Assembly: GCF_000182745.2 (NCBI RefSeq)
Contig: NC_016027.1
Location: forward strand, 2,889,001 to 2,953,000
Direction of reading: 5' to 3'
Origin: Komagataeibacter medellinensis NBRC 3288
GTDB taxonomy: Bacteria; Pseudomonadota; Alphaproteobacteria; Acetobacterales; Acetobacteraceae
DNA length: 64,000 nt
The translations under genes were made by a program, and so were the position numbers. Positions 5,629 to 15,325 of the stretch are shown piece by piece (positions within the stretch are counted from its first letter, which is position 1; each line of letters opens with the position of its first letter). Under the pieces are notes generated by a model. It searched no databases. It had not been told where the DNA came from and saw only the letters and a list, made by a program, of their open reading frames with translations.

Positions 5629-5680
5629 TGGGGATGCGATCACGCTATGCAGCTCTTGCGCAGCGGCGACCGCATCCCCA
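5629..5680 (+). repeat. Inverted repeat between the ABC1 gene and uvrB
   Basis: A perfect 10-bp inverted repeat (TGGGGATGCG at 5629-5638, CGCATCCCCA at 5671-5680) encloses 32 bases and ends 12 bases before the uvrB start. It has no T-run, so it is a doubtful terminator. It could be a transcript structure that sequesters the uvrB leader. I saw no clear LexA box here. Confidence 0.5.
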
Positions 5681-5692
5681 CTGTGTCTAGTT

Positions 5693-7936
5693 ATGGCAAC
5701 AGCATCACGTAACAGGAAAAAGAAGACCACCGACATCGACCCGGCGGATATGCCTGTCCTGTTCCAGCCGGAGCGGCAGGCGGCCAAGCCCAAAGTCAAT
5801 AAATTCAAGGTCCATTCCCCGTATGCCCCTGCGGGTGATCAGCCCACGGCCATTGCTGAACTGGTCAGCGGCGTGGAAGGGGGGGAGCGCGACCAGGTGC
5901 TTCTGGGCGTAACCGGGTCGGGCAAGACCTTCACCATGGCCAAGATCATCGAGGCAACGCAGAAGCCAACCCTGGTCCTGGCCCCTAACAAAACACTCGC
6001 AGCCCAGCTTTACGCGGAAATGAAGCAGTTTTTTCCCGATAATGCGGTTGAGTATTTTGTCAGCTACTACGATTATTACCAGCCCGAGGCCTATGTGCCC
6101 CGGTCGGATACGTATATCGAAAAAGATAGCCAGATTAACGAACAGATTGACCGCATGCGCCATGCCGCGACACAGGCGCTGCTGGAACGTAACGATGTGA
6201 TTATCGTGGCCTCGGTCTCGTGCATCTACGGTATCGGCTCGGTCGAGACCTATTCGCGCATGGTGGTCAAGCTGGAGGTCGGTGGCGAAATCGACCGCGA
6301 CAAGCTGATCAAGGGACTGGTCGAATTGCAGTACCGCCGCAATGATACCGCTTTCCAGCGTGGTACCTTCCGCGTGCGGGGCGAGACGATTGATGTCTTT
6401 CCCGTGCAGAACGAGGACCGGGCCTGGCGCATCAGCCTGTTTGGCGACGAGATTGACGAGATTAGCGAATTCGACCCGCTGACGGGCGAAAAGACCGGCG
6501 ACCTCGAATCTGTCAGCATTTACGCCAACAGCCATTACGTAACCCCCAGGCCTACGCTGACGCAGGCCATGACGGGCATGAAACAGGAACTGCGCGAGAC
6601 GCTGGCCCGCTTCAATGCGGAAGGCAAGCTGCTGGAAGCCGAGCGCCTGCAACAGCGTACCACATTTGACCTCGAGATGATCGAGACCACGGGCGTGTGC
6701 AAGGGAATCGAGAACTATTCACGCTACCTGTCGGGCCGCGCGCCGGGCGAACCGCCACCGACCCTGTTTGAATACCTGCCCGAGGACGCACTGCTGATCG
6801 TGGATGAAAGCCACGTGACCGTGCCGCAGATTGGCGGCATGGAACGTGGGGACCATGCGCGTAAATCCGTGCTGGCGGAATTCGGTTTCCGCCTGCCGTC
6901 GTGCCTTGATAACCGGCCGCTCACCTTTGCCGAATGGGATGCGTATCGCCCCCAGACCGTGTTCGTCAGCGCCACTCCCGGCCCGTGGGAAATGCGCCGG
7001 ACGGCGGGCGTGTTTGCCGAACAGGTGATCCGCCCCACTGGCCTGATCGATCCCGTCACTATTGTCCGCCCCGTTGAGCATCAGGTGGATGACCTGCTGG
7101 CGGAATGCCGCCTTACCATCGCCGATGGCGGCCGCGTTCTGGTCACCACCCTGACCAAGCGCATGGCCGAGGACCTGACGGAATACATGAACGAGGCAGG
7201 CATCCGCGTGCGCTACCTGCATTCGGATGTGGACACGCTGGAGCGTATCGAGATCATCCGCGACCTGCGGCTTGGCGCGTTTGACGTGCTGATCGGCATC
7301 AACCTTCTGCGTGAGGGGCTGGATATTCCCGAATGCTCGCTGGTTGCCATCCTCGATGCCGACAAGGAAGGCTTCCTGCGCTCGCGCACCTCGCTTATCC
7401 AGACCATTGGCCGCGCGGCGCGTAACGTGGACGGGCGTGTGCTGCTCTATGCCGACAAGATGACCGACAGCCTTGCCTACGCCATAGAGGAAACCGCGCG
7501 TCGGCGCGAAAAGCAGAACCTGTGGAACGAGGAACACGGCGTAACACCCCAGTCCGTGCGCAAGCATATTGGCGATGCCCTGTCCTCGGTCTTCGAGCAG
7601 GATTACGTGACCGTGACCCCCACGGCCGATGGCAGCGTGCGCGAAATGGTGGGCAAGGACTACAAGGCCGCCATTGCCGAACTGGATAAGAAGATGCGCG
7701 CGGCATCGGCGGAACTGGAATTCGAGACCGCAGCCCGCCTGCGCGACGAGATCCGCAGGCTGGAAGCGCTGGAGCTGGGCATGGAACCACCCCCCTTACC
7801 CCAATCGAGCGCTGGCATGCCCGGTACCAGCCCCAAGGCCGTGGCCCGGCGTAACCGTGGCCCGGTTCCGCTAGAGCCTGCTGCCGGGCGGCCTGATCCG
7901 CAACAGGCAAAAGGCAGGGGCAGACGACGTGGATGA
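5693..7936 (+). CDS. uvrB: UvrABC system protein B (excinuclease helicase subunit)
   Basis: The damage-verification subunit of nucleotide excision repair; it loads from UvrA and recruits UvrC. Walker A is GVTGSGKT at about residues 72-79. The beta-hairpin region [18 protein letters not shown] and the DESH Walker B box follow, then helicase motifs VI (QTIGRAARN) and a C-terminal UVR coiled-coil motif (near residue 670). At 747 residues it is about 70 longer than E. coli UvrB. The extra length is a basic 35-residue N-terminal tail and a proline/arginine-rich C-terminal tail after the UVR motif. The last 8 bases overlap the next gene. Confidence 0.97.
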
Positions 7937-10752: not shown

Positions 10753-11466
10753 ATGAGTGACGTCCTGCATGACGAGACCGCCGAGAAAGTAGTGGAAATT
10801 CCTTCTCCCAAATCCGCGATGGACGCGGCGGCGGTCAAGGCCGCCTACCGGCGCTGGGCCGGTGTGTATGATGCGCTGTTCGGCAGTGTTTCCGCCTTCG
10901 GGCGTAAGCGCGCGGTGGAGGCGGTCAATGCGCTGCCCGGCACGCGCGTGCTGGAAGTGGGTGTGGGCACCGGCCTTGCGCTGCCCTATTACCGCGCCGA
11001 CAAGCATATTACTGGTATCGACCTGTCTGGTGACATGCTGGAGCGCGCACGCCAGCGTGTGCGTCGTCTTAAACTGTCCAATGTGGACAACCTGCTGGAA
11101 ATGGACGCCGAGGCCACCCAGTTCGAGGACGGTGCCTTCGACATAGCAGTGGCCATGTTCGTAGCTTCTGTCGTGCCGCATCCGCGCGCCCTGTTGGCCG
11201 AACTCAAGCGCGTGGTCAGGCCGGGCGGCCATATCCTGTTCGTCAACCATTTCCTCGCGCAGGGCGGCGTGCGGCTGGCGGTTGAGCGTGGCATGGCGCG
11301 CGCCTCGCATTCGCTGGGATGGCACCCGGATTTTGCCATCGAATCTCTTCTGCCGCCGGCCGACCTGCGGCGCGCGACGTTACAGTCCGTGCCGCCAGCC
11401 GGGCTGTTCACGCTCGTGACGCTTGAGCGTGAAGCCGACATCACCGCCAATCCCATGGTGGCCTGA
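10753..11466 (+). CDS. pmtA: Phosphatidylethanolamine N-methyltransferase (PmtA type)
   Basis: A 237-residue class I SAM methyltransferase. Motif I is VLEVGVGTG at residues 66-74, followed by the acidic GIDLSGDM loop. The pattern VKAAYRRWAGVYDALFG at the N-terminus and FVNHFLAQGGVR later is that of the Rhodobacter/Acetobacter PmtA group, which methylates phosphatidylethanolamine to phosphatidylcholine, a major lipid of acetic acid bacteria. The frame is open upstream to 10618, but the ATG at 10753 fits the family. Bases 10528-10752 before it hold no gene that I can support. Substrate is inferred from family resemblance. Confidence 0.85.
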   Translation: MSDVLHDETAEKVVEIPSPKSAMDAAAVKAAYRRWAGVYDALFGSVSAFGRKRAVEAVNALPGTRVLEVGVGTGLALPYYRADKHITGIDLSGDMLERARQRVRRLKLSNVDNLLEMDAEATQFEDGAFDIAVAMFVASVVPHPRALLAELKRVVRPGGHILFVNHFLAQGGVRLAVERGMARASHSLGWHPDFAIESLLPPADLRRATLQSVPPAGLFTLVTLEREADITANPMVA

Positions 11467-11643
11467 TTTCAGGACTGACCATCCCGCCAGCCCTGTCCCT
11501 GCGGCAGGGCTGAAATGACATTTGCGCGACTGCTGGGACGGCCTGCAGGGTCGTTTTTGCGTACCGGTCGCTGTATATAGATGAAAACATGGTAACGATT
11601 GGCCATGCCGGGAACCGGTGCATGGCAGCAGGGAGTACACCGA

Positions 11644-13008
11644 ATGCCCACAGGCACACAGTTCGGGGCAGAGGCCGTGCGGGGAACAGCCCCGTCCTGT
11701 AACTACAGGACGGTAGGCATGCTGTATCTTGTCTTGGCGATCGTGTCGGGCATGACCGGGGGCCTGCTGGCCGTGGGCCTGCAGGCTGGCCTGCTGCCAC
11801 ATGGACTGCTGGAGGCCTGGGCAGGTGGCGATGCGGCTGGCGCGGCGGAGCGTATCGCCCGGCGCCATGGCATGATGATGGTATTTTTCTGCGCCCTGCC
11901 TGCCCTGTGTGGCGGGTTTGGCAACTGGTTTGTGCCGTTACTGCTGCGCGCCCGCGCCCTGGCCTTCCCGCGCATGGCGCTGGCGGGGTGGGCGCTGGTG
12001 GCCATGGGGTTTGTGGGGGTTCTGGCCGGGCTGTCGCCCGCCGTGGCACCGCAGGTCTCGGTTTTTGCCCTGCTTGCCTGGTGTCTTGGCATGCTGCTGC
12101 AGGCCATTAACATGGTGGCTACCATCCTTAACATGGGCCCGGTGGAACAGCGCCTGCGTGACCTGCCGATGTTTGTCTGGGCGCAGGGGCTTACGGCCAT
12201 GATGGCTGTTATGGTCATGCCGGTTCTGGCGGGGGGGCTTACGCGGATCGTGCTGTCGGGGGCCGATATGGCACCACGGATTGATGCGCTGTTGCATGTC
12301 TTTGCCGGCCCCGAGATCGCGCTGCTGCTGCTGCCCTCGATCGGGATCGTATCGCAGGTTATCGAGACATTCTCCAACGCACCCCTGCAGATGCCGCGCG
12401 TGGTGCTGGGGGCGCTGACTGTCATGTCGATTGGTGGGGCATCGGTCTGGGTGCATGACCTGCTGCACGGCGGGCTGGAACACATGGTGGCTCCTGCCGC
12501 CGTGCTGCAACTCGCACTGATCGTGCTACCGGTGCTGGCCGTGCTGGCCGCGTGGGGGCAGACGGTGCGTGTGGGGCGGGTTCGCGCTTCGGTCCCGATG
12601 GAATGGGCGGCGGGTTTTGTGGCCCTTGTGCTGGCGGGTTCGGTTATGTCGCTGCGGGCCGGCGGGATGGCTGACGTGCATGCCGCCACGCTTTATGCGG
12701 CGGTTTTCGCGCTGTTCACCGGTTTCTATTACTGGATTGGCAAGATGGTGGGCCATGTCGCCCCGGCTGGTGCCAGCCGTTTGCATTTTGGCCTGACGGT
12801 TGGTGGCACCGTGCTGTCACTGCTGGCGTTCCATGGCATGGCGGGCATGCTGGGGGCGGTTCTGATGGGGCTGTCGATCCTCGTCTTTGCGGGTATCGTC
12901 GTGCAGGCGGGGCTACGCCCGGCTGAAACGCTGCCGACCAATTACTGGGGGCCCGGTGCCCGTACGCCGGAATGGCAGACCCCCGTATCCACTCATGGGG
13001 ATGCATGA
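11644..13008 (+). CDS. Degenerate cytochrome c oxidase subunit I-like protein without a binuclear centre
   Basis: About 455 residues and roughly a dozen hydrophobic helices, clearly related to heme-copper oxidase subunit I: HGMMMVFF and GGFGNWFVP near helix 2, LLLPSIGIVSQVIETFS, FYYWIGKM, and the aa3-type tail NYWGPGARTPEW. Low-spin heme ligands seem kept: His75 in helix 2 and His346, which aligns with the second His of HFHYV. High-spin heme and CuB ligands are replaced. The first His of HFH is Asp344, GHPEVY reads AGPEIA (His to Gly222, Tyr to Ala226) and the paired VWAHH reads VWVHD (second His to Asp272). The K-channel lysine region is also changed. The start at 11644 has a strong AGGGAG site; an upstream TTG frame was rejected. 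It cannot reduce oxygen as a normal oxidase. It overlaps ctaB by 4 bases. Confidence 0.85.
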   Translation: MPTGTQFGAEAVRGTAPSCNYRTVGMLYLVLAIVSGMTGGLLAVGLQAGLLPHGLLEAWAGGDAAGAAERIARRHGMMMVFFCALPALCGGFGNWFVPLLLRARALAFPRMALAGWALVAMGFVGVLAGLSPAVAPQVSVFALLAWCLGMLLQAINMVATILNMGPVEQRLRDLPMFVWAQGLTAMMAVMVMPVLAGGLTRIVLSGADMAPRIDALLHVFAGPEIALLLLPSIGIVSQVIETFSNAPLQMPRVVLGALTVMSIGGASVWVHDLLHGGLEHMVAPAAVLQLALIVLPVLAVLAAWGQTVRVGRVRASVPMEWAAGFVALVLAGSVMSLRAGGMADVHAATLYAAVFALFTGFYYWIGKMVGHVAPAGASRLHFGLTVGGTVLSLLAFHGMAGMLGAVLMGLSILVFAGIVVQAGLRPAETLPTNYWGPGARTPEWQTPVSTHGDA

Positions 13009-13970
13009 GCATGAGCGGTTCCGCAACACTGCCGGATGCTGCACAGGGCACGGTCCTGACTTTTGATGCCAGCCGCGTCGGTACCGATGCACGCGACTGG
13101 CTGGCACTACTCAAGCCGCGCGTCATTTCGCTGGTTGTGTTCACGGGCGCTGCGGGGCTGTACATGGCACCGGGGCCGATCAACCCGCTGGTGGCGGTTG
13201 TCAGTATCCTGTGCATATGCATGGCATCAGGTGCAGCGGGCGCCATCAACATGTGGTATGATCGTGATATTGATGCGGTCATGAAGCGTACCGTAACCCG
13301 TCCTATCCCCGATGGGCGGATCAGGCCGGCAGCAGCGCTGGGTTACGGGATTGGTCTGTCGGTTGCCTCCGTCATCCTGATGTGGCTGGCCACCAATGCG
13401 CTGGCGGCGGGCATACTCGCATTTTCCATTTTCTTTTACGCCGTAATCTACACGATGTGGCTCAAGCGCTCCACGCCGCAGAACATCGTGATTGGTGGGG
13501 CAGCGGGTGCCTTTCCGCCCATGATCGGCTGGGCAGCGGCCACGGGGTCCATGGCCGTGATGCCGGTTGTGATGTTTGGCATCATCTTTTTATGGACACC
13601 GCCGCATTTCTGGTCGCTGTCGCTCTATGCGTGCAAGGATTACGGACGGGCGGGCATTCCCATGCTGCCGGTTGTCCGGGGCGCACGGCATACACGCTGG
13701 CAGATCCTGTGGTACACCATCATCCTGACTGTCGTATCGCTGGTGCCGTCCTTCCTGCATCTGGCGGGCTGGCTCTACACGGGTGTTGCCGGTGTGCTGG
13801 GGGCAGGGTTCATCTACTGTGCCATCAAGGTGCTGCGTGACAGGCAGGACGCCAATGGTGTCAGCCTGACGGGGGATGGCGCGGCGCGGCGGTCCTTCCG
13901 CTACTCACTGGCCTACCTGTTTCTCCTATTCTGCGGTCTGCTGGCCGATCACGCCTTCATTGCCCACTGA
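13005..13970 (+). CDS. ctaB: Protoheme IX farnesyltransferase (heme O synthase)
   Basis: A membrane UbiA-family prenyltransferase (321 residues) that attaches farnesyl to heme B to make heme O, used directly by bo3 oxidases and as precursor of heme A. Both aspartate-rich sites are present (NMWYDRDIDAVMKRT and YACKDYGRAGIPMLP), with about nine hydrophobic helices. The ATG at 13005 overlaps the stop of the oxidase-like gene in an ATGA arrangement; an ATG at 12972 is also in frame. It appears fully intact, unlike its neighbour, which fits a continued need for heme O in a quinol oxidase. No ctaC, ctaE or ctaG is present. Confidence 0.94.
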   Translation: MSMSGSATLPDAAQGTVLTFDASRVGTDARDWLALLKPRVISLVVFTGAAGLYMAPGPINPLVAVVSILCICMASGAAGAINMWYDRDIDAVMKRTVTRPIPDGRIRPAAALGYGIGLSVASVILMWLATNALAAGILAFSIFFYAVIYTMWLKRSTPQNIVIGGAAGAFPPMIGWAAATGSMAVMPVVMFGIIFLWTPPHFWSLSLYACKDYGRAGIPMLPVVRGARHTRWQILWYTIILTVVSLVPSFLHLAGWLYTGVAGVLGAGFIYCAIKVLRDRQDANGVSLTGDGAARRSFRYSLAYLFLLFCGLLADHAFIAH

Positions 13971-14347: not shown

Positions 14348-15325
14348 TCAGCGGCGCGTCTGCTGGATGGCGGAGAGCAGCCACGTGCCCGTCCCGGCTG
14401 AGCGCACGAAGGTCCACAGTTCGCTTACGGTGGTGCGGTTGGACGGATCACCATCAATCACGCGGCCCGTCATGTCCGTGGTGATGTCGATCAGGGAATA
14501 CTGCATGGCTACCGTTGCGTAATCCATGCCGTTTTCACGCCAGCTTTCCACCAGGTCACCACGCTCGAAGCGCACGTCGGATACCACATTGCGTGCACCA
14601 CGGCTGGCAAGATCGCTCAACTGGTTGTTGAAGTAGGAGACCATCTCCGGCGTGGCCATATGCTGCATGGCGGCCACGTTCTGCTGGCTCCATGCGGTCT
14701 GGATATTGATCAGCGCTTGCTGGAAGGCCTGATAGTCGGCCGCCGTAATGGCTACACCCACCGGCTGCGTGCTCCCCTGCGGGACCGGGCCACCCGTCGG
14801 GCCTGCGCCACCGGATGCAAACGGGTTGAGCGTGCCGCCGCCCGTGCCGCTACCGCTGAAGCGGCGGATTGCCCAGCGCACGAGAAAGAAGACCAGCGCC
14901 AACTGGATCAGCAGTCCCAGAAAGCCGCTGCCTCCCATGCCCGAACCGAACATGCCATGGCCGAACACCATGCCGAACAACCCGGCACCGATCAGCCCAC
15001 CCATGAACCCGCTCATGAACGGGTGGCGGGGCCGGGCCATTGCCATGCTGCCTGCACCAGCACCAAAGGGCGCACGCGCGCCATAGCCCGCGTCGGGCTG
15101 GCGGGGTGTCATGGTACGCTGGAAGGGCATGGCCCCCATCGGCGCGGTCGCAGATGGCGCAGGCGCACTGTAGGTGCGCGAGCCACGGCTGCCCATGGAC
15201 ATGCCACCGCCTGCACGGGCATCGGCATCATGCGGATGGGCCAGCAGTGGCAGCATGGTCAGGGCCGCGCTGGCGGCGAGGACGATGCTTTTACGCGGCA
15301 TCAGGCGCGAAGGATCTTTTTTCAT
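14348..15325 (-). CDS. Tim44-like domain membrane protein
   Basis: A 325-residue protein with a signal-like N-terminus (VLAASAALTMLPLLAHPHDA), a long Gly/Met/Ala-rich linker, a glycine-rich hydrophobic region and helix (GLLIQLALVFFLVRWAIRRF, about residues 135-155) and a C-terminal Tim44-like alpha/beta domain (about 190-320, including NIQTAWSQQNV and YSLIDITTDMTGR). Bacterial proteins of this type are membrane anchored with the domain exposed; their role is poorly defined. A second Tim44-domain protein lies near 37.3 kb. The start at 15325 is uncertain: MPRKS at 15301 is also possible. Confidence 0.8.
   Translation of the reverse strand: MKKDPSRLMPRKSIVLAASAALTMLPLLAHPHDADARAGGGMSMGSRGSRTYSAPAPSATAPMGAMPFQRTMTPRQPDAGYGARAPFGAGAGSMAMARPRHPFMSGFMGGLIGAGLFGMVFGHGMFGSGMGGSGFLGLLIQLALVFFLVRWAIRRFSGSGTGGGTLNPFASGGAGPTGGPVPQGSTQPVGVAITAADYQAFQQALINIQTAWSQQNVAAMQHMATPEMVSYFNNQLSDLASRGARNVVSDVRFERGDLVESWRENGMDYATVAMQYSLIDITTDMTGRVIDGDPSNRTTVSELWTFVRSAGTGTWLLSAIQQTRR

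Follow-up and report, generated by a model that had tools for sequence, protein, structure and literature searches.

What does an acetic acid bacterium keep a COX1-like gene for, when the encoded protein has lost the oxygen-reducing centre of cytochrome c oxidase subunit I? The gene studied here lies next to ctaB in a stretch of 64,000 nucleotides of Komagataeibacter medellinensis NBRC 3288 (contig NC_016027.1, positions 2,889,001 to 2,953,000), hereafter the window. A related gene pair is known: the part of PMC10715153 consulted, citing Matsutani 2014, describes a "deranged" COX1-like protein of Acetobacter adjoining ctaB, lacking all metal-binding residues and suggested to have a structural role, and in the consulted part of PMC5158111 ctaD and ctaB carry consecutive locus numbers and are conserved in A. 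pasteurianus.

A COX1-like frame without a binuclear centre

The frame was open throughout its 454 codons, as the original prediction had it, and an AGGGAG at 11630-11635 ends 8 bases 5' of the ATG at 11644 (Table 1). The protein matches Pfam COX1 with E = 4.3e-39 and the Rhodobacter and Paracoccus subunit I entries of the PDB at 1e-36 to 1e-37, and by fold and sequence it is a homologue of haem-copper oxygen reductase subunit I. Its score of 147.7 bits against the CtaD equivalog TIGR02891 places it outside that group (curated cut-off 670.75). The window protein has the aa3 tail motif claimed earlier, NYWG.GA.T.EW, which some distant family members lack. Apart from the gene itself, the genome yielded one COX1-family member, CyoB, a frame of 687 aa just beyond the window (G000:C3:2958334-2960280), about 55 kb from the COX1-like gene.

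Table 1 Features of the COX1-like locus, in window positions.
Feature	Position	Strand	Remarks
COX1-like (ctaD-derived) gene	11644..13008	+	454 aa; 12 predicted long helices; without binuclear centre
ctaB, haem O synthase	13005..13970	+	likely start overlaps COX1-like stop (ATGA); NCBIfam TIGR01473 328.6 bits, cut-off 210.3
Methyltransferase, upstream syntenic neighbour	10753..11466	+	best NCBIfam match PmtA, below cut-off
Tim44-domain protein, downstream syntenic neighbour	14348..15325	-	convergent
His75 codon	11866..11868	+	low-spin haem ligand position, helix II (R. sphaeroides H102 equivalent)
His346 codon	12679..12681	+	low-spin haem ligand position, helix X (H421 equivalent)
G222-A226	12307..12321	+	lost GHPEVY motif (CuB His and Tyr positions)
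H271-D272	12454..12459	+	remnant of CuB HH pair
D344	12673..12675	+	lost haem a3 ligand (H419 equivalent)
W179 codon	12178..12180	+	never-changing column; 97/97, 0 changes on tree
W269 codon	12448..12450	+	never-changing column; 97/97, 0 changes on tree

A predicted structure of the protein (mean pLDDT 86.6, pTM 0.90) contains twelve long helices, with residue 75 in the second and residue 346 in the tenth. Foldseek returned R. sphaeroides subunit I as the best fold, with a TM score of 0.79-0.83 by query length, although 42 of the 52 rows in the alignment fed to the predictor were true COX1s, so that the fold is partly imposed by these relatives.

Residue equivalences, given in R. sphaeroides subunit I numbers, were read from an alignment of the protein to true COX1. 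Both ligand positions of the low-spin haem are occupied by histidine. The set of three CuB histidines and the high-spin haem histidine is reduced to a single member, with H284 replaced by G222, H334 by D272 and H419 by D344, and only H333 retained, as H271. The cross-linked tyrosine of the GHPEVY motif (Y288) is A226, the K-channel lysine is gone, and the E286 equivalent is kept as E224. The replacement of every key residue of the binuclear centre save one histidine, first noticed by eye, is thereby confirmed.

Constraint on the low-spin ligand positions

The family was analysed as 97 aligned proteins from 97 genomes, covering 16 genus codes and taken from a search of 397 same-family genomes (matches listed) and from further searches of 33 and 36 among these. 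The rows are not a random draw and include some near copies, such as L025 and L026. Before counting, the window protein itself (L004) and the repeats of L022 and L018 (L052 and L053) were left out, and L033 was cut to its last 460 residues. Family members in G362, G375, G272 and G387 were seen outside the 97 rows, and the named loci L099-L107 were kept outside the counts, eight of these nine repeating genomes already in the set.

The column of His75 is histidine in all 96 rows that have it, and that of His346 in 97 of 97. The remaining row, from G327, has no readable His75 column; its frame is split, and the upstream frame contains an SHGLLL stretch. In this 85%-complete genome the COX1-like frame (L212, 1157-2472) consists of two adjoining frames, possibly through a frameshift or a sequencing error.

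The catalytic positions behave differently from this pair. Equivalents of H284, Y288 and K362 are found in none of the 97 rows, the last count agreeing with the altered K-channel noted from the window sequence; the haem a3 column (H419) is histidine in 2/97, the H334 equivalent is kept in 10/97 and that of E286 in 61/97. The H333 equivalent is present in just 46/97, so the retained H271 is no family feature. Changes extend to the haem surroundings, since the column of R481/R482, which we take to be the propionate arginines of subunit I, is empty in 66 of 67 rows and holds a residue other than arginine in the last. The helix I arginine that contacts the formyl group of haem a persists in only 11/67.

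The spacing between H75 and P86 and between H346 and Y362 is identical in 67 of 67 rows, which speaks against an aligner artefact. With this fixed spacing and H284 at 0/97, no histidine elsewhere was found to restore the binuclear centre; the by-eye assignment of the two low-spin ligands was upheld in the 97-row alignment, and the CuB and haem a3 histidines had not moved to other positions. A Pfam COX1 scan of eight members left two without a match at E 0.1 and one below the cut-off, and members barely or not matched by this model still carry both low-spin histidines.

A tree of 49 family members and 34 true COX1s placed the family in one group (SH-aLRT 100) with the Lichenicoccus roseus COX1 as its neighbour (89); since this was a quick tree with long branches, which gave warnings, a single origin is likely rather than proven. 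Descent from COX1 as such is shown by the sequences. Summed over the branches within the family group, the tree length is 47 changes per column. When 353 well-filled columns of the 49 members were scored by parsimony, the median column changed 15 times, and all but four changed at least once; the four are those of H75, W179, W269 and H346. The naive chance that two named columns fall among four of 353 is 6 in 62,128, for columns that are not in fact independent. Seven of the nine histidines invariant in the 34 true COX1s do change within the family. Because W179 and W269 match the two histidines in invariance, the pattern may in part have a structural cause.

Rates were compared between helices, whose limits were set by the predicted structure described above. 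In the family, helices I, II and X are slower than helices VI-VIII (11.9 versus 16.6 changes per column, Mann-Whitney p 8e-6), and the contrast persists without the four invariant columns. In true COX1 the order is reversed (3.4 versus 1.5 changes per column, p 0.003), and the best conserved part is helices VI-VIII, which surround the binuclear centre. Constraint has thus moved from helices VI-VIII to helices I, II and X.

Within Komagataeibacter, the median dN/dS of the COX1-like gene is 0.195 (range 0.06-0.29, 91 pairs); in these 14 genomes ctaB gave 0.100 and pmtA 0.135. Values elsewhere are 0.33 in Gluconacetobacter (66 pairs), 0.26 in g41 (31 of 36 pairs usable), 0.18 in Novacetimonas (6 pairs) and 0.49 in g31 (3 of 6 pairs, near saturation). 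The gene evolves faster than its neighbours yet is constrained, and is thus under purifying selection. The 13 other copies from the genus of the window are open over the matched region, 96 of the 97 family frames are unbroken over the protein, and the one stop in each of three matches (G251, G323 and G302) is the gene's own stop at the match end. Stop codons scattered through orthologues, which together with dN/dS near 1 would have spoken against a selected protein, were not seen in the rows examined. Ligand invariance and dN/dS give good support to the proposal of a selected, non-catalytic protein that would keep its low-spin haem site. Chance and pseudogene readings were rejected on the evidence of dN/dS, the changes on the tree and the helix-rate shift.

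In the older view, reportedly that of Matsutani 2014, mutations built up in the COX1-like gene after the bo3 oxidase replaced aa3. A decaying relic of that history could explain the fast evolution (on a 36-row topology shared by both genes, tree length 27.7 for the COX1-like gene and 8.6 for ctaB), the lost catalytic residues and one clean loss of the gene, in G001. It is nevertheless very improbable in view of a within-genus dN/dS of about 0.2, frames that stay open despite so many changes per column, and two ligand positions that never change.

Linkage to ctaB and to the quinol oxidase

The TGA stop of the COX1-like gene (13006-13008) overlaps the ATG at 13005 as ATGA, making it very likely that ctaB starts there and not at 12972. 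In 97 of 97 rows (67 + 30), ctaB lies directly downstream on the same strand, and ATGA forms the last four bases of the COX1-like frame in 42/67. If the sole use of the frame were as a leader translated ahead of ctaB, this overlap would be expected; however, a leader needs no amino-acid conservation, whereas residues and helices here are selectively conserved, and several rows have 3-13 bases between the COX1-like stop and the ctaB start. We give this explanation hardly any weight.

The gene order uvrB-epimerase-greB-gshB-pmtA-X-ctaB-Tim44-tldD is common, in whole or in part, to members with enough flanking sequence. Lichenicoccus has the same order from uvrB to Tim44, with a true COX1 as X, COX2 before it and COX3 after ctaB. 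In the window, 178 bases separate pmtA from the COX1-like gene, leaving no room for COX2, and neither COX2 nor COX3 of the ancestral cluster was found at the locus. The shared order and the missing COX2 and COX3 indicate an old cox operon reduced to a ctaD-like gene and ctaB. The order ctaD-ctaB is already that of true cox operons and thus ancestral, so adjacency by itself is weak evidence. Nor did branch rates set ctaB apart: the COX1-like gene covaried no more strongly with it (rho 0.38) than with the neighbouring tim44 (0.40).

The constant position beside ctaB in the examined rows would suit a structural partner that stabilises CtaB and has no haem of its own, a role suggested in the consulted part of PMC10715153. 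Such a partner leaves unexplained why the two haem ligand positions are among the four of 353 that never change and why the helices of the low-spin haem have become the slowest, and we regard it as quite unlikely.

Occurrence of haem and oxidase genes was compared in 48 hand-picked genomes, comprising 33 carriers of the COX1-like gene, 5 with a true COX1 at the ctaB locus and 10 without the COX1-like gene. All 33 carriers have ctaB above the cut-off and all have CyoB, 31 above its cut-off of 1020 bits and two just under it (G032 at 1019 and G118 at 1017). The CuB chaperone CtaG was found in none of the 33 carrier genomes tested. CtaA is present in 17 carriers and missing in 16, so the role of the COX1-like protein cannot need haem A; haem A was accordingly rejected as the common cofactor, a decision that also took in the sparse retention of the helix I arginine. 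Four carriers (G123, G142, G251 and G132) have a second cox set with CoxB above the cut-off and a further COX1 match, at 404-440 bits to the CyoB model.

In seven of the 48 genomes (G002, G029, G066, G070, G076, G116 and G210) no ctaB above the cut-off and no CyoB match were found, and no COX1-like protein was among the matches listed, in a search with the window protein as sole query, which a very diverged copy could escape. Some of the seven may have lost all haem-copper oxidases. Five of these genomes measure 1.7-2.1 Mb, and those of G002 and G076 4.5-4.6 Mb. The clear exception to joint occurrence is G001, which has ctaB (L180, frame 5637-6956, - strand), the same neighbours from uvrB to Tim44 and, elsewhere, two CyoB genes, with no COX1-like gene; CtaB can therefore do without the COX1-like protein. 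In G077 ctaB stands beside a different oxidase cluster, and in G031 the contig ends at ctaB, which CtaG follows, so that the upstream gene is out of view. Judged from these sequences, the fixed place before ctaB and the shared absence with ctaB and CyoB are features of the family.

In 23 carriers CyoB and ctaB share a contig, and in 20 of these they are about 46-63 kb apart, the exceptions being G025, G251 and G169; in the other 10 carriers the two are on different contigs. The CyoB-ctaB linkage is conserved but loose.

A stand-alone low-spin b-type cytochrome, or a haem or redox sensor, unrelated to haem O supply would fit the preserved bis-His site and the dispensability of CtaA. It would not account for the ctaB linkage in 97/97, the joint absence with ctaB and CyoB in seven genomes, or the disappearance from the window locus of the ancestral COX2 and COX3 seen in Lichenicoccus, and is in our view unlikely.

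Proposed role and known systems

The reading we prefer, at a probability of roughly 0.5, is that the COX1-like protein is a former aa3 subunit I, non-catalytic and with one haem, that partners CtaB in supplying the quinol oxidase. CtaD would have been turned into a non-catalytic membrane protein holding one haem between His75 in helix II and His346 in helix X. It would partner CtaB, the product of the overlapping next gene, as a holder or acceptor taking haem, either O or B, in a site like that of subunit I, and would in this way help the bo3/ba3 quinol oxidase to mature. According to the part of PMC9145763 consulted, assembly of subunit I starts with the low-spin haem, and CtaB is found in complexes with CtaA; a subunit I stopped after its first haem fits that order. 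The COX1-like protein may accordingly represent a subunit I that stays at this first, low-spin haem stage.

We regard the route of haem O from synthase to oxidase as poorly known, in line with the hedged wording in that part of PMC9145763. If the COX1-like protein holds haem at CtaB, it would offer a natural, separable single-haem subunit I for studies of haem insertion. What has been published as a "deranged" relic in bacteria of industrial use would then be a functional gene, and an example of a catalytic subunit put to a new purpose with one of its two haem sites retained. We advance more tentatively, as somewhat less than an even chance, that the family is a new functional class of COX1-fold proteins: a non-catalytic subunit I with a single haem, derived by dismantling a cytochrome c oxidase and conserved across acetic acid bacteria, which accepts or carries haem on its way from haem O synthase to the quinol oxidase. 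Among the literature matches listed, none reported a COX1 with a single haem.

Compared with CtaD/COX1, the A-type haem-copper oxidase subunit, the COX1-like protein has the same fold with 12 helices, low-spin ligand positions and tail motif and the same place before ctaB, in a locus orthologous to that of Lichenicoccus roseus; it differs in lacking the CuB site, the haem a3 ligand, the tyrosine, the K-channel lysine and the propionate loop, and in a locus without COX2 and COX3, with no CtaG in the genomes tested. CyoB, subunit I of the bo3/ba3 quinol oxidase, belongs to the same superfamily and occurs in the same genomes, but is the catalytic paralogue. The "deranged COX1-like" protein of Acetobacter is, by its description in the consulted part of PMC10715153, encoded in the same gene pair with ctaB, and the window locus agrees with that class in having a COX1-like gene beside ctaB and a bo3 oxidase in the genome. 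The gene is therefore already known, and we claim no novelty for the ligand pair. The loss of all metal-binding residues, as worded in that part of PMC10715153, is contradicted by the invariance of the low-spin pair, which is here among the best conserved features rather than lost, and which changes the likely meaning of the gene.
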